Virus record (IMG/VR): IMGVR_UViG_3300035698_016050
Coordinates: 1-21,013 of that record
Strand: one strand, 5' to 3'
Length of the DNA: 21,013 nucleotides
Origin: a virus
Below are positions 2,491-17,957 of this stretch, in pieces. Both the position numbers and the translations under genes were made by a program. The notes under the pieces are model-generated. The model ran no database searches and was not told the origin of the DNA. It worked only from the letters and a program-made list of their open reading frames with translations. Positions within the stretch are counted from its first letter, which is position 1, and each line of letters starts with the position of its first letter.

Positions 2491-2500
2491 TTTTTATCGG

Positions 2501-2512
2501 CACAAATTTGTG
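2501..2512. promoter_or_regulatory. perfect 12-bp palindrome
   Basis: CACAAATTTGTG is a perfect dyad in the leader of the left operon. It could be a binding site for a dimeric regulator acting after transcription has started, or part of a leader structure. There is no other copy in the regions inspected, so its role is open. Confidence 0.3.
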
Positions 2513-2709
2513 TAAAAATTGCACCTTCAAAGGGTTTAGCCCTTATCTGGCGGTATTGGTGGGAACCAGCGTGAGCCAGTCCCCGAAACTAAGTGAATTG
2601 AATATGTAGCGTGTATTGATACTGCGTACAGTGACAATCACTTAGTGTTTTGAGGTTTCCAGCTGTTAATTTGTAGAAATTAGAGTGGTTACTGAATTTC
2701 TATATTACA

Positions 2710-2738
2710 AGTATATATTTTTTGTAATGTTTTGTCAA
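2710..2738 (-). promoter_or_regulatory. strong sigma70-type promoter of the left operon
   Basis: Reading leftward: TTGACA (2733-2738), a 17-bp A/T-rich spacer, then TATACT (2710-2715). This is the best promoter match in the window. Expected start is near 2703. It drives the 2443-to-452 block of small proteins, annealing protein and SSB. It lies 120 bp beyond the terminator of the preceding minus-strand gene, consistent with an independent transcription unit. Confidence 0.75.
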
Positions 2739-2858
2739 CTAAAACTTAAGATTTAAACACGCAGCCCTTTCTCTAAAGCACAAAGCCATTAAATAGCTGT
2801 CTTGCTTTGACAACTAAATGATAATGCCAAACTTTGTTAGCACCCTTACAAAGCTCAC

Positions 2859-2881
2859 AAAAAAAGACCCTGATACAGGGT
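2859..2881 (-). terminator. rho-independent terminator of the 2911-3444 gene
   Basis: On the minus strand ACCCTG-TAT-CAGGGT (6-bp stem, 3-nt loop) is followed by CTTTTTTT. It lies 30 nt beyond the stop codon at 2911 and separates that gene from the left operon promoter. The stem closely resembles the TTACCCTG/CAGGGTAA palindrome in the control region. Confidence 0.8.
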
Positions 2882-2910
2882 GCTATTATGTACTTTATAT
2901 TACAGGTAAG

Positions 2911-3444
2911 CTAGTCGCTTAGATCAAGAAACCCTTGCATGTCGCTGAACCATGGAGTTTTTAGTAATGCGACACCGCTCCTAACAAGCTCATTATGTGT
3001 GCCAAGCTTGAACTTAGCTTGTTTAGAGTAGAAGAAAGTATATCTCTTTTTACCGTTTACGTTTTCTTGTTTAAGCCCAATTTTATATATAAAAGCACAA
3101 AGATCACGGTACCTTTCTACTTCTTCGGCGTATACGTTACCCTCTTGATTAGATCGGAAATACCCATCTTCAACATAGTTATAGAATCCTTGCTTCGAAA
3201 GATAAGGCTCGAGGTATAATTCAAACGCATTATTGCGAGTAAGTGATCTCCAATCTCTAGGTATTTCTTTATAATTTTTCTGCATAGACAGACGAAACGA
3301 TTGGAGTACGTTTTTAGTCTGTGCGCTCGTGTAGTCGATGTCAGTCATTTGTAGATGTTTTATTAATTTTTTAGCCAGTTTTGGAACTGATAGGATATAC
3401 CTATAGTGCCTTTGGACAGTTTTAAATCTTCTATTTTGTATCAT
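2911..3444 (-). CDS. hypothetical basic protein facing the KilA-N gene
   Basis: A 177-residue, strongly basic protein (MIQNRRFKTVQRHYRY, KLAKKLIKHLQ, QKNYKEIPRDWRSLTRNN). It is rich in aromatic residues and probably mixed helix and strand; the C-terminal part (VNGKKRYTFFYSKQAKFKL) looks like paired strands. No catalytic motif or known DNA-binding fold was recognised. It is a single-gene unit with its own promoter (3524-3552) and terminator (2859-2881), transcribed away from the KilA-N/replication operon across a shared control region. In many phages this place is held by a regulator; a regulator of the divergent promoters is therefore an inference, supported only by position and basic charge. 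A nucleic-acid-binding early protein is the main alternative. Confidence 0.75.
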   Translation of the reverse strand: MIQNRRFKTVQRHYRYILSVPKLAKKLIKHLQMTDIDYTSAQTKNVLQSFRLSMQKNYKEIPRDWRSLTRNNAFELYLEPYLSKQGFYNYVEDGYFRSNQEGNVYAEEVERYRDLCAFIYKIGLKQENVNGKKRYTFFYSKQAKFKLGTHNELVRSGVALLKTPWFSDMQGFLDLSD

Positions 3445-3523
3445 ATCTTTAGGAATTTGTCAATATATCGTTTATCTTTACATCGCGCATTAAGATTGTA
3501 AGCAAACTTATGTAAACTTTTAC

Positions 3524-3552
3524 AACCTAGTTTAGTTGTTTATTGTTGTCAA
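3524..3552 (-). promoter_or_regulatory. leftward promoter of the divergent control region
   Basis: Reading leftward: TTGACA (3547-3552) embedded in TTGACAACAA, a 17-bp spacer, then TAGGTT (3524-3529), a weak -10. The start would be near 3517, leaving a leader of about 70 nt before the ATG at 3444. The -35 is the mirror image of the rightward one at 3566-3571. Confidence 0.5.
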
Positions 3553-3565
3553 CCTTAAATTTATC

Positions 3566-3594
3566 TTGACAACAACCTTTTATTTTATTACCCT
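3566..3594 (+). promoter_or_regulatory. rightward promoter of the divergent control region
   Basis: TTGACA (3566-3571) within TTGACAACAA, 17-bp spacer, then TACCCT (3589-3594), a poor -10 that lies inside the palindrome at 3588-3607. GTTGTCAA (3545-3552) and TTGACAAC (3566-3573) make an 8-bp inverted repeat with 13 nt between, so both -35 elements share one dyad. A weak second candidate is TTGAAT (3614-3619) with ATTATT (3637-3642), whose spacer holds another TTACCCTG. Confidence 0.5.
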
Positions 3595-3607
3595 GTAATC
3601 AGGGTAA
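3588..3607. promoter_or_regulatory. operator-like palindrome TTACCCTG-TAAT-CAGGGTAA
   Basis: Perfect 8-bp arms around a TAAT spacer, overlapping the rightward -10. A further half site TTACCCTG lies at 3624-3631. The arrangement fits a dimeric repressor site controlling the KilA-N/replication operon. The protein that binds it is not known; the KilA-N protein or the 2911-3444 product are candidates. TTACCCTG also occurs inside two genes (11764-11771, 19559-19566), so a single half site is not significant by itself. Confidence 0.5.
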
Positions 3608-3647
3608 GTTTTGTTGAATTTTCTTACCCTGCATTTATTATTTAGAC

Positions 3648-3662
3648 GTTACACATTGTAAC
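3648..3662. promoter_or_regulatory. small inverted repeat GTTACA-CAT-TGTAAC
   Basis: A 6-bp dyad with a 3-nt spacer in the leader of the rightward operon. It may be a second, different operator half or a small RNA hairpin. The weight of evidence is low because such short dyads arise by chance. Confidence 0.25.
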
Positions 3663-3763
3663 ACTTTGATTCCAGATAACAAGCAAATCTTCTCTATTGT
3701 CACTCAGTCGCTTTGTTATTGGTGTAGGTGAAAGCCCTACTCAATCAATTTTGTTGGTTTACA

Positions 3764-3794
3764 AGAGGGGTGTCAATTCATAAGTTACCCCTCT
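3764..3794 (+). promoter_or_regulatory. leader hairpin AGAGGGGT/ACCCCTCT
   Basis: A perfect 8-bp stem with a 15-nt loop (begins GTCAA), ending 29 nt before the KilA-N ATG. There is no T-run, so it is not a terminator. Its stem and the TCAA in its loop match the minus-strand leader hairpin at 2471-2490, which ends 27 nt before its own gene. Confidence 0.6.
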
Positions 3795-3796
3795 CG

Positions 3797-3816
3797 TAAG
3801 TCAATTAAATGACTTA
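3797..3816 (+). promoter_or_regulatory. second leader hairpin TAAGTCA/TGACTTA
   Basis: A perfect 7-bp stem with loop ATTAAA immediately after the AGAGGGGT hairpin and 7 nt before the ATG at 3824. In a gene without a Shine-Dalgarno sequence it leaves only AAAACTT single-stranded ahead of the start, so it could influence initiation. Confidence 0.5.
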
Positions 3817-3823
3817 AAAACTT

Positions 3824-4522
3824 ATGAACGATAATACTAAAACCCTAAGTACAACAGATATTTTTGAAGTAATTGATGGAAGAGTCAATTTAACTAAACT
3901 TGCCGTGTCAAAAAGCAAAGACATCAGAGAATGGTTGAGAAACAAATCAACGTCCGCATATATTAAAGCATTAGAGGAAGCTAGGGGGAATTGCCCACAG
4001 CTCAATGTTATTAATGGAGTTGGAACATTTGGAACACGTGAAGTAGCGATCAAGCTTGCTCAGTGGATAAGTCCAGAATTTGAAGTGTACTGCACTTCTA
4101 AGCTTGATGAGCTATTTTCAAAAGGCTACACGCAATCTAAAGAGCTAACCAGAAAGCAATTACTATTATTAGCACTTGAAGCTGAAGAGCAATTAGAACT
4201 ATTGCAAAAAGAGAACAAACAACAGCAACGAGTAATTGAAGATCAGAACATTTTACACGGCTCACTAATTAAACTCAAAGCAACTGAGACTAGAACAGCC
4301 CTGAAAGCCCTCAAAGATGATTTAGGGGCAGAGATTAATAGATGTGTCTATAAGCTCTTTGGTAATATCGAAAGCTTCAGGCAACGCCACGTATCAGCTC
4401 ATGATCTATACAAGCGAATGACGGGCAAAACATACCTCGGAGCAAAGAACTCAAGCTACGAATCAAAATGCGATTACCTCGAGTTCTTGAAGACACAAAT
4501 TAACAGACTAGAAAGCAATTAA
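3824..4522 (+). CDS. KilA-N domain protein
   Basis: A 232-residue protein. The N-terminal 100 residues match the KilA-N DNA-binding domain of phage and DNA-virus proteins: an opening hairpin (FEVIDGRVNLTKLAVS), a helix with DIREWLRNKST (about 33-43), then GVGTFGTREVAIKLAQWISPEFEVYCTSKL (about 65-94), including the hallmark G-T-x-x-x-x-x-x-A-x-x-x-A-x-W-x-S-P-x-F. A charged coiled coil follows (LEAEEQLELLQKENKQQQ, about 119-136) and a C-terminal domain (about 150-232) that ends at INRLES. Proteins of this type are phage antirepressor or regulator candidates. It is the first gene of the rightward early operon, so it could bind the palindrome upstream and autoregulate; this is inference. The junction TTAATATG couples it to the next gene. 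Confidence 0.85.
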   Translation: MNDNTKTLSTTDIFEVIDGRVNLTKLAVSKSKDIREWLRNKSTSAYIKALEEARGNCPQLNVINGVGTFGTREVAIKLAQWISPEFEVYCTSKLDELFSKGYTQSKELTRKQLLLLALEAEEQLELLQKENKQQQRVIEDQNILHGSLIKLKATETRTALKALKDDLGAEINRCVYKLFGNIESFRQRHVSAHDLYKRMTGKTYLGAKNSSYESKCDYLEFLKTQINRLESN

Positions 4523-4523
4523 T

Positions 4524-4973
4524 ATGATCCCACTTACAAAAAATTATCAAATAGACGAGCAAGACACCACACCAATGAATAATATCCGCTCATTCAATAG
4601 CTTAATGCAAAAATGCTCAGAAGGCAATGATATTAATCTACAAGCCACATCTATGGGATTTGCTTATTACCAATCATACAAAGACAATAAAGACTATCAA
4701 AACGTCGTTAAACTTGATTCTAACGCAATGACGCTCTACTTCACCATAAAGAGCTTAGTCGATGATATAAGCCACAACCTTAAGCAGAAGGCTGAAGATG
4801 AAGTAGACATGAACAAAAGAAAAGCACTAGCAAACATCATTAAGTCTCATGAAGACAGGATTGATGAGTACTCAGGTATTTACAACCGAACACTTCAGCA
4901 ACTAGAGCAGGATGGTCAAGAGTTTGGCTACCAGTATTTTAATAAACAATTACCAGCAATCAGATATGTCTAA
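4524..4973 (+). CDS. hypothetical early protein
   Basis: A 149-residue, acidic, largely helical protein without recognised motifs. The middle (about 70-110) looks like a coiled coil (IKSLVDDISHNLKQKAEDEVD). It begins one base after the KilA-N stop (TTAATATG) and its last codons overlap the start of the replication initiator by 8 nt (ATGTCTAA), so it is coupled on both sides and must be co-expressed with them. A helper in replication initiation is conceivable from position only. Confidence 0.75.
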   Translation: MIPLTKNYQIDEQDTTPMNNIRSFNSLMQKCSEGNDINLQATSMGFAYYQSYKDNKDYQNVVKLDSNAMTLYFTIKSLVDDISHNLKQKAEDEVDMNKRKALANIIKSHEDRIDEYSGIYNRTLQQLEQDGQEFGYQYFNKQLPAIRYV

Positions 4974-5778
4974 AATAAAACGATTCAACAAAGGATGGAC
5001 ATCAGTCCCTAATGAATTATTAAACGATGATAGCATATCTTTTAAAGCAAAAGGACTATACGCATTTCTTAATTCTAAGCCAGATGAATGGGATTTCTCA
5101 GTTGATAGAATTGCATTGCAAAGCAAAGACGGCAAAGATGCGGTACGTAATGCTCTTCAAGAGCTACAAGCAAAAGGCTGGGTGCTAAGGACACCTGCTA
5201 AAAACGCTGACGGAACATTCAACGGCTACGATTATTGGATTAATGATACACCTAGAAAAGCAAAACCGTCGACGGGTCAACCGTCCTCGGGAAATCCGTC
5301 GACGGTAAACCCCGTCACCATTAGTAATAAAGAGAATAGTAAAAAAGAAGAAGTAAAAAAGAAGCAGGAAGAGCCTACAGCATCACCTTTTATAGAAATG
5401 AAGGAAGATAAAAAACTTGTGCAGTCTGAACGTGATGAAATTATTAATTTAATCAAACAACTTGTTCCCTCTCTCATGGAATATCCATCAATCGTTAAGA
5501 TCATAGAAGCGATCGAAGACAAACCAACAGATCAACGAGAAGGTTATATCAGATTTGTGATCCAAACAAAGAAGCCTAGTAAATTATATGAAGTACGAGG
5601 ATGGAAAGATTGGTTCTGGGCTGATTACTACGCAAAGGAGCGTAGCAGTGAGGAGGAAGGGAAAGTGTTAGTCCATACAAAAGAAGACTTAGCAGACTTT
5701 GAGCGTTTGAACTTGAACCCCTACGGTAGAGGAAAATGGGCAGATCAATTTAAACTTAACTCTAATAATTTAGTATAA
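4966..5778 (+). CDS. phage replication initiator with helix-turn-helix domain
   Basis: A 270-residue protein starting at the ATG at 4966, which overlaps the previous stop (ATGTCTAA); the frame is open further upstream but that part overlaps the previous gene. Residues 1-95 form the winged-helix domain typical of phage O/DnaD-like initiators: RFNKGWTSVPNELLNDDSIS, FKAKGLYAFLNSKPDEWDFS, ALQSKDGKDAVRNALQELQA, KGWVLRTPAKN. Residues 101-117 are a low-complexity linker (PSTGQPSSGNPSTVNP), encoded by three 15-bp units, followed by a lysine/glutamate-rich stretch. The C-terminal domain (about 150-230) is helical, with a conserved-looking EVRGWKDWFWADYYAKE motif. The likely role is to bind the origin and load the host helicase. 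No helicase or helicase loader gene is visible in the window, so the C-terminus may recruit the host enzyme. Confidence 0.82.
   Translation: MSKIKRFNKGWTSVPNELLNDDSISFKAKGLYAFLNSKPDEWDFSVDRIALQSKDGKDAVRNALQELQAKGWVLRTPAKNADGTFNGYDYWINDTPRKAKPSTGQPSSGNPSTVNPVTISNKENSKKEEVKKKQEEPTASPFIEMKEDKKLVQSERDEIINLIKQLVPSLMEYPSIVKIIEAIEDKPTDQREGYIRFVIQTKKPSKLYEVRGWKDWFWADYYAKERSSEEEGKVLVHTKEDLADFERLNLNPYGRGKWADQFKLNSNNLV
5266..5374. other. candidate replication origin inside the initiator gene
   Basis: Three consecutive 15-bp units at 5266-5280, 5281-5295 and 5296-5310. Units 1 and 3 contain the perfect palindrome CCGTCGACGG and unit 2 the variant CCGTCCTCGG; a degenerate fourth (CCGTCACC) follows. They are conspicuously GC-rich in an AT-rich genome. 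Immediately to the right (about 5327-5374) the top strand is almost only A and G, an easily melted tract. Iterons with dyads in the linker part of the initiator gene, followed by an A-rich tract, is the layout of the lambda origin in gene O. Established for lambda; inferred here. Confidence 0.55.
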
Positions 5779-5951: not shown

Positions 5952-6365
5952 ATGAACATACTCTACATTAACCCCACTTACAAGCATTTATTCTTCGCTA
6001 TTGAGAAAGCAGGATTCAAACGCAAGCGAAGAACTCAGAGCGCATACAAAAGACATTTGATAGCCCTTAGTGAGAATAATATTGACCCGAACGATCACGT
6101 TATGAAGTTCTTCACAGGTGATGAGTCCGTTGTGATAGTACCCTCTGAATACCCCTACGCTCTACCTAGTGCATTTAGGCACCATATTATGTGTATAAAG
6201 GGGAAAGTATCCAGTGAGGAAATAAACGAGGCTGTAAATCGGTTCTATGAGACCGAGAATATAGAAGTTGTAGCAGTGTTTACAAATGAGTTTACTAAAA
6301 GATCAGTCAAACAAGTAAACTATGCTCACATATTTTTAGATACACTTGAACAAATATATGATTAA
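5952..6365 (+). CDS. hypothetical protein
   Basis: A 137-residue protein. The N-terminal third is basic (KAGFKRKRRTQSAYKRH), followed by an alternating strand/helix part with VVIVPSEYPYALPSAFRHHIMCIKG (about 59-83), then SSEEINEAVNRFYETENIEVVAVF and a C-terminal strand-helix. The PYALP...HH/C segment is distinctive and slightly reminiscent of DUF3605-type proteins, but not enough to claim membership. The start is 2 nt after the membrane protein stop (TTAATTATG), and the last 8 nt overlap the nuclease start (ATGATTAA). Function unknown. Confidence 0.75.
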   Translation: MNILYINPTYKHLFFAIEKAGFKRKRRTQSAYKRHLIALSENNIDPNDHVMKFFTGDESVVIVPSEYPYALPSAFRHHIMCIKGKVSSEEINEAVNRFYETENIEVVAVFTNEFTKRSVKQVNYAHIFLDTLEQIYD

Positions 6366-6711
6366 GCATAAGTACAACGCAACTAAAACGAAAATAGGAG
6401 GAATTACGTTTGATTCGAAATTAGAGGCTAACTGTTTCAAGTTCCTAGGGGATAAGATAGTTGAGTTACAGCCTAGCTTTGAATTACAACCCAAATTCAG
6501 AGATATGCAGGGCAATAATATCAGAGCAATCAAATACATTGCTGACTTCATGATTCTGCACAATCGCAAGATCATCGTGATAGACGCCAAAGGCTTCCCA
6601 ACTGACGTGTATAAGATGAAAGCCAAAATGCTAGCATTTCATCACCCATTTCTGGAGTTTTACGCCGTCAAATCAGTTAAGCAACTTAAAGAATTATTAG
6701 AGACTCTATGA
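6358..6711 (+). CDS. DUF1064-type nuclease (PD-(D/E)XK-like)
   Basis: A 117-residue protein from the ATG at 6358, which overlaps the previous stop (ATGATTAA); the frame could begin at a TTG at 6346 but the coupled ATG is preferred. It carries the DUF1064 signature: FDSKLEANCFKFL (18-30, with Glu23), FELQPKF (41-47), YIADFMI (60-66, Asp63) and IVIDAKG (73-79, Asp76 and Lys78), an E...D...DxK set as in restriction-nuclease-fold enzymes. Such phage proteins are thought to act as resolvase-like or recombination nucleases. It sits between replication and nucleotide genes, which fits processing of replicating DNA before packaging. Family call is firm; the exact substrate is inference. Confidence 0.85.
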   Translation: MIKHKYNATKTKIGGITFDSKLEANCFKFLGDKIVELQPSFELQPKFRDMQGNNIRAIKYIADFMILHNRKIIVIDAKGFPTDVYKMKAKMLAFHHPFLEFYAVKSVKQLKELLETL

Positions 6712-7256
6712 TACTAAGCAGAAAAGCACTACTACAAGCAATTCAAGATAATAAGATACTAACCTCAGACTTTAGAGATGAGCTAATTAATAATCAGTCT
6801 ATTGACGTAAGATTAGGCAGATGGGTGTATATCCAGTCAGATGGAATACATCCGATGAAATATTGGCATGATCTAGACGTAGCACCACTAGAGTGCCACA
6901 AAAATAAGTTTTATTTAACTCACACAGAAGAGTTTATCGGAACCGCGCCAAATAGTGATATATTACCAAGCTTCAAACTTAGAAGCTCAGCGGGCAGACA
7001 CGGCATAATACACACACTAGCAGGCCACGGGGACGTAGGGTTTATGAACCGATGGGCAATGGAGTTTATAGCCGCCAAACCTATAACGTTAGAACGTTAC
7101 ATGAAGATAGGTCAAATCTATTTCACGCTAGCAACAGAATCAGGATCATACAGTGAAGAGACGGGCAATTATCAGTCAACAAGTGATTTTGAACTATTAC
7201 AAACAAATTGGGATAAGCTTGATCTGCTTCCAAAACCGCTAAATAAAGTTATATGA
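6708..7256 (+). CDS. dcd: dCTP deaminase / dUTPase family enzyme
   Basis: A 182-residue protein. Motifs of the dCTP deaminase branch: MILSRKALLQAI at the N-terminus, QSIDVRLG (30-37), FKLRSSAGRHGII (89-101; Arg92-Ser93-Ser94 and Arg97), GHGDVGFMNRWAMEF (106-120; Glu119 in the place of the catalytic Glu138 of E. coli Dcd), then KIGQIYFTLATESGSYSEETGNYQ (about 131-154). The enzyme would convert dCTP to dUTP, or hydrolyse dUTP, and so supply thymidylate precursors or keep uracil out of phage DNA. The sequence does not decide between the two. ATGA overlap with the nuclease gene. Confidence 0.82.
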   Translation: MILSRKALLQAIQDNKILTSDFRDELINNQSIDVRLGRWVYIQSDGIHPMKYWHDLDVAPLECHKNKFYLTHTEEFIGTAPNSDILPSFKLRSSAGRHGIIHTLAGHGDVGFMNRWAMEFIAAKPITLERYMKIGQIYFTLATESGSYSEETGNYQSTSDFELLQTNWDKLDLLPKPLNKVI

Positions 7257-11323: not shown

Positions 11324-11935
11324 ATGGATGAAGACAAAATACAAGACGTTACTGATAAAGTAACACAAGATACAGTAACACAAGATACAGTAGATCAATC
11401 AGATGATAATACATCTGGTAACTCGACTGACAACATATCTCGTATTCGTGAAATGCGTAAAGCTTTCAAAGAACAAGGAGCAAAATTAAGAAAATACGAA
11501 GAGGCGGAAGCTAAACAGGAAGAAGCTAAGAAGCTCGAACAAGGTAAATACGAAGATGTATTGAACGCACAGAAATCTCAACATTTAGAGACACTCAATA
11601 AATTAAAGGACGTTACCACCACTCAAGCAATCGAAGCTGAAATCGCACTGGTTAAACCTCAATGGAAGAACTTAATGGCTAAGGAAACGAAAGCCCTGCT
11701 TGAATATGATGATAGTGGTGAAATTACTAATTTGTCCGAAGCTATAGATCAAGTCAAAAGCAATTACCCTGACGCTTTTCGATCTAATGATAAATACATC
11801 CCAGCGCCTCAGTCGACTACAGGTGAAGGTGGTGTAAAAATATCAAAAGAGCGTGCATTGGAAATACTCAATTCTGGAGATAACAGAATGTATGTAAGAC
11901 ACGAAGCGGAGATTCTCGAAGCTCTCAAGTCTTAA
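11324..11935 (+). CDS. capsid scaffolding protein
   Basis: A 203-residue acidic protein just ahead of the coat gene, the normal place of the scaffold. The first 40 residues are low complexity and disordered (VTQDTVTQDTVDQSDDNTSG), including an exact 15-bp tandem duplication. Residues about 45-105 are a charged coiled coil (MRKAFKEQGAKLRKYEEAEA, KQEEAKKLEQGKYEDVLNAQ). The C-terminus contains a helix (SKERALEILNSGDNRMYVRH, about 170-189) resembling the coat-binding end of scaffolds. It would guide coat assembly and then leave or be degraded. No protease gene was found near it. Confidence 0.82.
   Translation: MDEDKIQDVTDKVTQDTVTQDTVDQSDDNTSGNSTDNISRIREMRKAFKEQGAKLRKYEEAEAKQEEAKKLEQGKYEDVLNAQKSQHLETLNKLKDVTTTQAIEAEIALVKPQWKNLMAKETKALLEYDDSGEITNLSEAIDQVKSNYPDAFRSNDKYIPAPQSTTGEGGVKISKERALEILNSGDNRMYVRHEAEILEALKS
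11360..11389 (+). repeat. 15-bp exact tandem duplication in scaffold gene
   Basis: GTAACACAAGATACA is repeated twice head to tail, encoding VTQDT VTQDT in the disordered N-terminus. Being in frame and identical at the DNA level, it looks like a recent replication slippage. Confidence 0.85.
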
Positions 11936-11958
11936 TAAGCAAGATTAGCAACTTATTA
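11933..11958 (+). promoter_or_regulatory. hairpin before the coat start
   Basis: TAATAAG (11933-11939) pairs with CTTATTA (11952-11958) around a 12-nt loop. The left arm contains the scaffold stop codon and the right arm ends 4 nt before the coat ATG. AU-rich and weak, but in a start region with no Shine-Dalgarno sequence it may matter for coat expression. Confidence 0.4.
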
Positions 11959-11962
11959 TTAT

Positions 11963-12928
11963 ATGGCTATCACTACAAACGCATCTATTGCACAAGCACA
12001 AACTACACTATTAGCAAATCGTTTGCTCAAACAACTTACATTCAGTAACGTACTCAAACAGTTTGTACGATCTGATACAACTTTCGCAACTGACACAGGC
12101 GCGTACCAAAGAGGTCAAACTCTTTCAATCCCAGTTGTCCCCGCGATTACTACTAACATTGTTACATCCACAGGTGGAGCGGTTACCTTTCCTAAGCAAA
12201 CGCTTACTAATGTAACTCTTACACTTGACTCAATCGCTTCAACTCCATTCTCGTTGAACGACGCAGATGTTACTCTTGCTAACGTTAACCCATCTAGCGA
12301 CATTCTCGTTAATGCAGCTAACGAACACGGAAACAGCATTGAATCTCAAATGTTGCTTGGTACTTTCAACAGTGCAGACCTTATTGGGAACGCAGTTGGA
12401 TCAACAGCAACGGCTGGTAACTACAAATTACTCGCTACACTCTGGCAGAGCTTCTTTGATGCTAAGGTTCCTGAAACCCAAACTAAAGTTGTTGTTCTCC
12501 CAGGGGACATCTATGGAGAGTTACTACAGGATGAACAGGTTGCAAGACTTGCTAACCCTGATCAGTCCTCAACTCTAGCTAACGGCGTTATTCTTTCAAC
12601 TCTTAACATGATCATCATCCCTTCGGCTGCGACACGTGTTGGAACTGATTACACACTTAACACTGACCTTGCAGCTGTATCTACTAAGGTAGGTTACGCT
12701 TTCACTACTGACTCAATCGTTGCAGCAGTCCGTGAACTTCCAATTGAAGGAGTCGGCGTGGAACAAATGACCGTTAGAAATAACGATGTTAACCTTGCTA
12801 CTCGTTTGACAATATCTTACAACGCTAACGTAATCGGAGGCGATAAGAACTACCATATGGAAACTCTATTTGGAACTAAGATCTACAGACCTACAACTGT
12901 ATTACCAGTCCTCGGTGGAGTTGCATAG
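11963..12928 (+). CDS. major capsid (coat) protein, P22 gp5-like
   Basis: A 321-residue protein rich in A, T, N and V with few charged residues, as usual for coats. The opening MAITTNASIAQAQTTLLANRLLKQ, the early part GQTLSIPVVPAITT (about 52-65), VTLTLDSIASTPFSLNDADV (about 87-106) and SSDILVNAANEHGNSIESQML (about 112-132) resemble the P22-coat-type HK97-fold proteins of many siphoviruses. A later part (VVVLPGDIYGELLQDEQVARL) matches the A-domain region. No N-terminal cleaved delta domain is apparent, consistent with a separate scaffold. It lies between scaffold and a strong terminator. Confidence 0.87.
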   Translation: MAITTNASIAQAQTTLLANRLLKQLTFSNVLKQFVRSDTTFATDTGAYQRGQTLSIPVVPAITTNIVTSTGGAVTFPKQTLTNVTLTLDSIASTPFSLNDADVTLANVNPSSDILVNAANEHGNSIESQMLLGTFNSADLIGNAVGSTATAGNYKLLATLWQSFFDAKVPETQTKVVVLPGDIYGELLQDEQVARLANPDQSSTLANGVILSTLNMIIIPSAATRVGTDYTLNTDLAAVSTKVGYAFTTDSIVAAVRELPIEGVGVEQMTVRNNDVNLATRLTISYNANVIGGDKNYHMETLFGTKIYRPTTVLPVLGGVA

Positions 12929-16326: not shown

Positions 16327-17957
16327 TGTTCGACAAAGGAGCTGTAACAATTAAAATAAAAGCTGATACAAAACCGTTAGCGACAGGGCTTAGTGCGGTT
16401 CTCAAAGATATTAGTAGCTTTGCGAAAAGTTCAAAAAGATATTTTGAACAGGTTGCAAGCAGTACAAAGGGTGTACGGGACGCATTCTCAAGCATTGGTG
16501 GGGCAATTAAAAATCTAGCGGGCAAAGCATTCGATCTTGGTAAAACACTCACTGTAGGGCTCGTAGGGGCGTTTACGGCGGTGAGTGCGTACGGACTCAA
16601 AATGGGTAATAGTATCCAACAAACATCTATTGCCTTTGATACAATGCTCGGCGATCCAGATGCACGCCGCAAGCTAATGCAGGATATTACAGATTTTGCT
16701 AAGACAACACCATTCGAGCGTTTTGAATTGATTGACGCTTCCAAGCAATTGCTGGCAATGGGTGTTGGTGCTAAAGATATAATCCCTACAATGCAAATGC
16801 TGGGAGACGTTTCAGCAGGCGTATCAACGAGCGTTCAAGAAACAGCTTTTGTATATGGACAGGTTAGAGCACAGGGTCAAGCTTATACTCAAGATCTTAA
16901 CCAGTTCGCCAGCCGTGGAATTCCTATCTACGAAGAAATTGCGAAAGTATTAGGGGTTACTGTTGCACAGCTTCGAGACGGCATGGGCACAAGTAAGATC
17001 AAAGTAAATTTTGCCACTGTTAATACAGCTTTTGCGAACATGACGAAAGAAGGTGGAAAGTTTAACAACCTGATGGATAAACAATCTCGATCACTGGGGG
17101 GAATCTTCTCCAACGTGAAGGATGGGATTGATAATATGATACTTAGTTTTATGGGTATAACATCAGAGGGCGATGTTAAATCAGGGTCATTTTTTGATCT
17201 TGCTCAGCAAAAAGCTGCAGGCTTTCAAGAATGGTTATCTGCTAATGAAGAGACCATTAGCCAGTGGGGGGCTAGAACATTCGGGGCTATTGCACGAAGT
17301 ATTGACATAGCATGGTCACAAGTTATTGCACCAGTACTGAGAGCGTTGCAGGACTGGTTTAACAATGGAGGAAAAGAGTCAATCAAAGTATATTACGAAG
17401 CGTGGAAACCTCTAGTTCAGCTCTTCAGATACTATGGATATCAGCTATGGCCAGTCGTCAAAAAAGCTTTTCAACAGCTTATGGAATACATGGCAAGCGA
17501 GCAGTTTAGAAATGATCTGAGAACAGTTGCTAGCATAATACAATCGATTGCGGACGCTCTGTATAGAACCGTTGACGGTCTGATTGCAGTTTACGACAAC
17601 TGGAAGAAAACCGAGTCGGCTATATCAAAAGGTCTCAATCACTCTTCGAGCACAACTAAGGACTTTTTCGCCTCGGACTTTTTCGCCTCGAGCACAATTG
17701 GAGGGTTGTTTGCACCCGTTGGTCGCAGGGCAAACGGTGGACCAGTTGAAGGCGACAACATGTACGAAACGGGAGAGTTTAACCGTCCAGAAATTCTAGA
17801 CGTCAAAGGCAAACAATACATGATTCCAGGAAATGACGGACGAGTGATGAATCAAAATCAAATTAAAGGCGAGACTAAGACAGTGAAAAACGTAACCATT
17901 AACCAATATGGCACACCTCAAAAAATATTCACACAATCTAACTACGTATTCTCATGA
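16326..17957 (+). CDS. tape measure protein
   Basis: A 543-residue protein. The N-terminal part carries the tape-measure domain: a hydrophobic segment (GLVGAFTAVSAYGLKMG, about 78-94), then FDTMLGDPDARRKLMQDITDFAKTTPFERFELIDASKQLLAMG, a long helical region with SAGVSTSVQETAFVYGQVRAQGQ and DLNQFASRGIPIYEEIAKVLGV. The C-terminal 130 residues contain a low-complexity stretch with a tandem duplication and a GRRANGGPVEGDNMYETGE segment of the kind found near the ends of many tape measures. By length it predicts a fairly short tail, perhaps around 80 nm at 0.15 nm per residue (rule of thumb). No peptidoglycan hydrolase domain seen. Confidence 0.87.
   Translation: MFDKGAVTIKIKADTKPLATGLSAVLKDISSFAKSSKRYFEQVASSTKGVRDAFSSIGGAIKNLAGKAFDLGKTLTVGLVGAFTAVSAYGLKMGNSIQQTSIAFDTMLGDPDARRKLMQDITDFAKTTPFERFELIDASKQLLAMGVGAKDIIPTMQMLGDVSAGVSTSVQETAFVYGQVRAQGQAYTQDLNQFASRGIPIYEEIAKVLGVTVAQLRDGMGTSKIKVNFATVNTAFANMTKEGGKFNNLMDKQSRSLGGIFSNVKDGIDNMILSFMGITSEGDVKSGSFFDLAQQKAAGFQEWLSANEETISQWGARTFGAIARSIDIAWSQVIAPVLRALQDWFNNGGKESIKVYYEAWKPLVQLFRYYGYQLWPVVKKAFQQLMEYMASEQFRNDLRTVASIIQSIADALYRTVDGLIAVYDNWKKTESAISKGLNHSSSTTKDFFASDFFASSTIGGLFAPVGRRANGGPVEGDNMYETGEFNRPEILDVKGKQYMIPGNDGRVMNQNQIKGETKTVKNVTINQYGTPQKIFTQSNYVFS
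17661..17690 (+). repeat. 15-bp exact tandem duplication in the tape measure gene
   Basis: GACTTTTTCGCCTCG occurs twice head to tail, encoding DFFAS DFFAS. The block is flanked by another near repeat, TCGAGCACAA, at 17645-17654 and 17687-17696. The in-frame, identical copies suggest recent slippage in the low-complexity linker near the C-terminus. Confidence 0.88.

Follow-up and report, generated by a model that had tools for sequence, protein, structure and literature searches.

A candidate replication origin of 15-bp dyad repeats and an adjoining purine-rich tract lies within the initiator gene of a phage

The window, that is, the whole stretch of 21,013 bases that was analysed, carries an array of 15-bp repeats inside a replication initiator gene. 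This array is an element of the DNA itself: it lies in the initiator's own gene, immediately after the segment encoding the DNA-binding domain, and it is conserved in relatives. Probably, positions 5266-5374 serve the phage as an origin of replication, alone or alongside others, and would be bound by the initiator whose gene contains them (Table 1). The window is a separate virus record in its database. Its late region is siphovirus-like, with terminase subunits, scaffold and tape measure, and its early region encodes SSB, a KilA-N protein, DUF1064 and a dCTP-deaminase-like protein.

Table 1. Features of the initiator gene and of the candidate origin within it (positions in the window).
Feature	Position	Strand	Basis or remark
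Replication initiator gene, 270 aa, HTH_36	4966..5778	+	ORF; PF13730 E=6e-7; PHROGs 186/270/428 E ~1e-15 to 1e-16
N-terminal winged-helix DNA-binding domain, residues 1-96	4966..5253	+	AlphaFold2 pLDDT mostly >90; fold neighbours
Disordered linker, residues 97-152	5254..5421	+	pLDDT ~40-60 over most of linker
Iteron unit 1, CCGTCGACGG dyad	5266..5280	+	Sequence CCGTCGACGGGTCAA; perfect dyad
Iteron unit 2, degenerate CCGTCCTCGG	5281..5295	+	Sequence CCGTCCTCGGGAAAT; two mismatches
Iteron unit 3, CCGTCGACGG dyad	5296..5310	+	Sequence CCGTCGACGGTAAAC; perfect dyad
Possible fourth half-site CCGTCAC, 16 bp past unit 3	5312..5318	+	Read from sequence; tentative
Candidate unwinding element: A/G-rich tract of low stability bearing TAGTAA repeats	5320..5374	+	Purine fraction, stability, TAGTAA tract in clade relatives, family-wide word excess
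Helical C-terminal domain, residues 153-266	5422..5763	+	AlphaFold2, low to moderate confidence

The array was characterized first at the level of the window. Tandem Repeats Finder reported a 15-bp array at 5262-5309 (3.2 copies, 69% matches), confirming the array described in an earlier note on this DNA; of the three dyad units counted there, only the outer two are perfect, the middle one having two mismatches. Exact copies of CCGTCGACGG number two in the 21,013 bases, both of them in the array, and with up to two mismatches allowed there were 7 matches against 1.87 expected, a number reached in 1 of 100 shuffles. The array had also been described as the most GC-rich short block, which is true at 50 bp: the segment starting at 5265 has a GC content of 0.64, the maximum of the whole record. 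Under the phage's codon usage, the chance of both PST units being spelt CCG TCG ACG is 4.3e-7, and of both fitting CCGTYRACG 2.3e-5, for a motif picked after viewing the window and three relatives. A general tandem-repeat test on the window alone, which allows for the repeated peptide, gave p=0.083, so the window's case rests on the motif and on the relatives. Near matches to DnaA boxes numbered 35 against 27.7 expected, none of them within the origin block. One more sequence that fits the iteron motif, CCGTTGACGG, lies in the tape-measure gene (17569-17578) and may be chance or a second weak site; SPP1 has oriR as a second site.

The protein encoded around the array was assigned by profile and fold. 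HTH_36 (PF13730) is its only Pfam match over the cut-off (29.6 bits against a curated cut-off of 25); neither a lambda-O-named Pfam family nor, at E<=0.1, RepA_N (PF06970) matched, and the C-terminal domain, which presumably contacts host machinery, has no Pfam match over the cut-off. Its strongest PHROG matches are to DnaD-like loaders and to initiators of replication (DnaD-like PHROG 186 at 2.6e-16), with weaker matches to 'O-like' PHROGs (678 at 1.2e-5, 391 at 0.02). AlphaFold2 places the array where the earlier note had it, between the DNA-binding and C-terminal domains: the linker peptide (PSTGQPSSGNPST...), also as given there, forms residues 101-115 in a low-confidence stretch between the first domain and the helices that begin at residue 153. 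Among the matches listed for the model of the N-terminal domain, the closest folds are primosomal DnaB (Z 10.1) and RepA_N (4pql, 8.3; 4pt7, 7.8), followed by a Rep-DNA complex (5kbj, 7.6), 4pta (7.5) and DnaD (2v79, 7.5). Z values near 8 are common for winged helices, so these neighbours support a class and do not prove kinship. A Foldseek search gave no match at E<=0.001, and lambda O is absent among the VIA fold matches listed, an absence that excludes nothing. Overall, the kinship of the initiator points to a TP901-1/DnaD/RepA_N-like winged-helix group.

In phage lambda, ori-lambda is embedded in the O initiator gene, and the window had been described as lambda-O-like. This description holds for the arrangement, an in-gene array followed by an easily melted tract, and is not supported for kinship: the initiator has an HTH_36 domain with DnaB/DnaD/RepA_N fold neighbours and no lambda-O Pfam match, and the nearest characterised relative found is TP901-1 Rep, whose N-terminal domain is related (tblastn E=3e-7, 32.7% over residues 2-114). 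TP901-1 ORF13 (Rep) and Tuc2009 Rep (Rep2009) are reported to bind direct repeats inside their own genes, which serve as ori (PMC8965321); the window likewise has direct repeats in its own initiator gene, and in TP901-1, as in the window, they follow the N-terminal domain. In the TP901-1 gene (L002), CCAGATGTGG units recur at 15-bp intervals at the site of the window's array, where the window instead has CCGTCGACGG, and its C-terminal part belongs to another BLAST group than the window's. SPP1 gp38 binds oriL within gene 38 (PMC6316719); the direct repeats of SPP1 come with an AT-rich unwinding region, an arrangement like the window's. In-gene origin binding has been suggested for 80alpha ORF20 (PMC5499656). 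With TP901-1, Tuc2009, SPP1 and lambda on record, the in-gene phage origin is already known, and the window adds a probable case. The RepA_N initiators of pSK41 and pTZ2162 resemble the window's protein in winged-helix fold, at a level near that of common winged helices (Z 7.5-8.3), and have an ori inside rep that encodes the linker, whereas the window's protein has no RepA_N Pfam match. In pSK41 this linker region is dispensable as protein, and plasmid pPR9, in which a pfam13730 domain together with the origin region belonging to it stands in place of the pSK41 domain, replicates (PMC5703833); the pPR9-type Rep shares its Pfam domain with the window and differs in being a plasmid protein with a staphylococcal (pSK41-type) C-terminus. 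The iterons of the RepA_N initiators are described as inverted repeats of 8-9 bp that converge towards a poly-A tract, a further difference from the window (background on RepA-type initiators in PMC7145576 and PMC7157519).

Single-protein searches of viral contigs found no close relative of the initiator, nor of the terminase, and an alignment search and DNA patterns were therefore used. Phage records matching the domain at E<=0.01 numbered 285, all below 60% identity, of which 11 were fetched; the alignment search of viral contigs added 80 loci, and linker arrays were viewed for 61 of these. Of the records examined, which also included the window and the loci from a viral motif scan (below), 197 matched the domain and 13 did not. 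The 197 fell into 108 clusters at 80% domain identity, one of them too short, leaving 107 for the repeat test (58 protein-first and 49 DNA-first). In four records (L292, L293, L294 and L295) the major capsid protein shares 69-76% identity with that of the window and the portal only ~25%, a sharp mosaicism; an initiator matching the window's is absent in these records, which does not fit the origin reading, though they are fragments or mosaics.

The tract on the 3' side of the array had been described as almost pure A/G, and it is: 5326-5374 is 88% purine and the most purine-rich 49 bp of the record (4 of 20,965 segments of this length are as high), and the duplex stability of the tract is within the weakest 5-6% of 50-60-bp segments. 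For the family, words were counted in the 75 nt past the last iteron of the 103 clusters with a tract and compared with the expectation under synonymous recoding. ACTA was found 142 times against 43 expected, AGTA 122 against 33, TACT 120 against 31, and CTACTA 23 against 3.9. Control counts, taken from the domain and from a position 150 nt farther downstream, were flat except for AGTA in the domain (34 vs 22, z 2.8), and the protein-first subset (54 clusters) showed the same. By this measure, with ACTA, AGTA and TACT at 3-4 times the synonymous expectation, the tract constitutes a second element at the level of the DNA. A[CG]TA is present in 80 of the 103 clusters, CTACTA in 20 and TAGTA in 18; members of the window's clade (L013, L014, L015, L109, L118, L207) have TAGTAA repeats in the tract, and the tracts of L207 and L109 are read in different frames. 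DnaD is described as binding TnnT pairs on one strand of the B. subtilis unwinding sequence, CTACTATTACTTCTACTA (PMC10201434). As in the basal unwinding sequence of B. subtilis oriC (DnaA-trios/DnaD recognition element), CTACTA-type repeats adjoin GC-rich double-strand sites in some relatives (the 20 clusters above). Unlike in oriC, the TAGTAA repeat of the window's clade is on the other strand with opposite polarity, and the origin block has no DnaA-box match; the resemblance is a lead, not a demonstration.

We infer origin activity of the following kind. The winged-helix N-terminal domain, probably as dimers, would bind CCGTYRACGG dyads repeated every 15 bp; the assembled array would open the adjoining A/G-rich, TAGTAA-bearing tract; and the C-terminal domain would then recruit host helicase-loading or primase machinery. 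The protein linker would be a passive translation of origin DNA. Recruitment from the host is proposed because none of the proteins scanned (Pfam, PHROGs) was recognisable as a helicase or a polymerase. A helicase loader was likewise not recognised among 20 neighbour proteins, a part of all ORFs; the downstream genes scanned, those at 5952-7256 beyond a small ORF between 5783 and 5950, gave weak or no matches, DUF1064 and dCTP deaminase, and no loader, P-type or other.

It is also conceivable, if rather unlikely, that the iterons are an operator through which the initiator or a repressor controls expression or copy number, the origin lying elsewhere, for example in the divergent intergenic region at 3445-3823. 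A site within the gene could serve autoregulation, and the intergenic region is AT-rich, contains operator-like inverted repeats and includes the purine-skew minimum of the record (3795), where gene orientation flips. A GC-skew switch near 5.3 kb, predicted in the earlier note, was not found either; in this record, probably a fragment, the cumulative GC-skew minimum is base 66. No repeat array is present within 2500-4200, however; throughout the family the iterons adjoin an A[CG]TA tract that is easier to reconcile with opening than with repression, and the TP901-1 and Tuc2009 repeats were reported as ori. The inverted repeats of the intergenic region comprise TTACCCTGTAATCAGGGTAA with a further half-site TTACCCTGCA (3588-3633) and GTTACACATTGTAAC (3648-3662).

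A second alternative is that the linker is a proline-rich protein spacer repeated for structure, with the DNA repeat as a by-product. In its favour, the peptide is itself repetitive (PSTGQ/PSSGN/PSTVN), and on the window alone the repeat test reached only p=0.083. For the relatives, the tandem repeat in the 150 nt past the domain was compared with that obtained when codons were redrawn for the same peptide with each record's own usage. The linker repeat exceeded synonymous recoding in 43 of the 58 protein-first clusters at p<0.05 (27 at p<0.01), and the best repeat period was 15 bp in 48 of the 58, whereas control tests gave 2/58 for the DNA-binding domain and 1/58 for other ORFs. These values argue against a spacer and bear out the earlier suggestion that the linker peptide is shaped by the function of the DNA. 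The remaining 15 clusters were not significant. Relatives that keep the linker and have no repeated dyads, the kind named in the earlier note as counting against an origin, do exist but are few: in four of the 58 (L015, L061, L064 and L072) a pair of CC-N6-GG dyads at repeat spacing is lacking, as is a significant DNA repeat. The 16-bp units of L083 are repeated in the DNA (p=0.003) and not in the peptide, which a repeated protein spacer would not explain.

For a search that is independent of the protein, viral contigs were scanned for two CCGTYRACGG with 4-7 bp between them. This DNA-only scan yielded 118 stretches, 105 of them in an initiator ORF past the domain (median 33 nt), and these 105 are distributed over all three codon phases (91/9/5). 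Depending on phase, the same DNA is translated as PSTEN (phase 0), VDGK (phase 1) or SRQR (phase 2), as seen among 80 of the 118 stretches. When clusters found by motif are included, 63 of the 108 have the motif in the linker, in frame 0 only in 50, in frame 1 only in 8 and mixed in 5; in three genes (L079, L112 and L180) all three phases occur together, because their units are 16-17 bp apart. At least 11 phase changes are needed on the domain tree, a weakly supported tree of a short domain. Since the same motif is read in all three frames, it is the DNA and not the peptide that is conserved, and a structural spacer becomes very improbable. The expectation that iterons would be retained while linker amino acids drift is thereby exceeded. 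A stricter 15-bp version of the motif found 81 stretches in bacterial genomes, 66 of them inside such initiator ORFs; the sources were Bacillota (Clostridia, Bacilli, Negativicutes), Pseudomonadota (Alpha- and Gammaproteobacteria) and one Chloroflexota (Anaerolineae) record, with 7 of unresolved phylum. Functionless slippage, a recent duplication of a 15-bp unit, is the least credible explanation: short tandem repeats do arise in this way, and the window has two other 15-bp tandem repeats by Tandem Repeats Finder (11354-11392 in the scaffold gene and 17660-17690 in the tape-measure gene), but the units vary in centre and spacer with the dyad kept, and position and motif recur in these phyla and in phages of several hosts.

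The step at the dyad centre is YR (TG, CA, CG or TA) in 225 of 307 units, and a dyad with such a centre would suit a dimer that bends DNA. In 46 protein-first clusters, silent Pro wobble covaries with the opposite half-site (Fisher p=1e-5); only two independent pairs are supported on the tree, and the covariation is therefore taken as no more than suggestive. As a possible confounder, GC content averages 0.47 in G-C clusters and 0.42 in the others, with overlapping ranges. Covariation between recognition helix and iteron was judged by eye, gave no clean rule and is not claimed. The C-terminal parts of 98 clusters fell into 43 BLAST groups, and Pfam matches among 50 members were DnaB_2 in 5, Phg_2220_C in 4 and DUF6017 in 1; with so many groups, the domain and its site look like a cassette joined to changing C-termini.

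A wider reading is that a single origin code, in which CCGTYRACGG recurs at intervals of 14-17 bp ahead of an A[CG]TA tract, has spread across phages and prophages of several phyla as a portable cassette of DNA-binding domain and cognate site with many unrelated C-termini. Selection on the DNA would be so strong that any frame is tolerated, and the linker would thus be nothing but translated origin; the tract would be a strand-specific, trio-like single-strand element for DNA opening and host helicase loading without DnaA. We advance this tentatively, the chances lying somewhat against it. Neither the three-frame rule nor the CCGTYRACGG/A[CG]TA pair as a family-wide code was found in the open-licence literature searched. 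If the wider reading were true, the family would provide ready natural data on protein-DNA recognition, the reader domain and the site it targets being carried by one and the same gene. A common annotation ('HTH DNA-binding / replication initiation protein', with a PxTEN-like repeat linker) could become a locator of a probable origin to ~100 bp from sequence alone. The linker would also be a clean case of a protein segment dictated by DNA function that survives frame changes, and through the tract, iteron origins might be connected with the trio-type unwinding sequences found in chromosomal origins, a connection open to test.

Motif stretches were also detected outside recognised initiator genes. 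Among the 13 of 118 viral stretches without a domain match, L125 and L170 have the appearance of truncated relatives, and nine others (GC 0.53-0.68) seem to be unrelated; L093 and L210 make up the rest. In L093 (~11900-12050) an array and tract are present with no open frame, either a remnant or an array working without coding. In L291 (~7040-7200) a stop codon follows the first unit and five units lie beyond it, which may be decay or, again, an array that works without coding. The 15 of 81 genome stretches outside initiator ORFs are mostly GC-rich. Three Clostridia MAG contigs (L239, L249 and L265) carry arrays of CCGTCAACGG-type 15-bp units outside recognised initiator genes, possibly a dispersed element or decoy sites; the arrays of L249 and L265, from different MAGs, are very similar.
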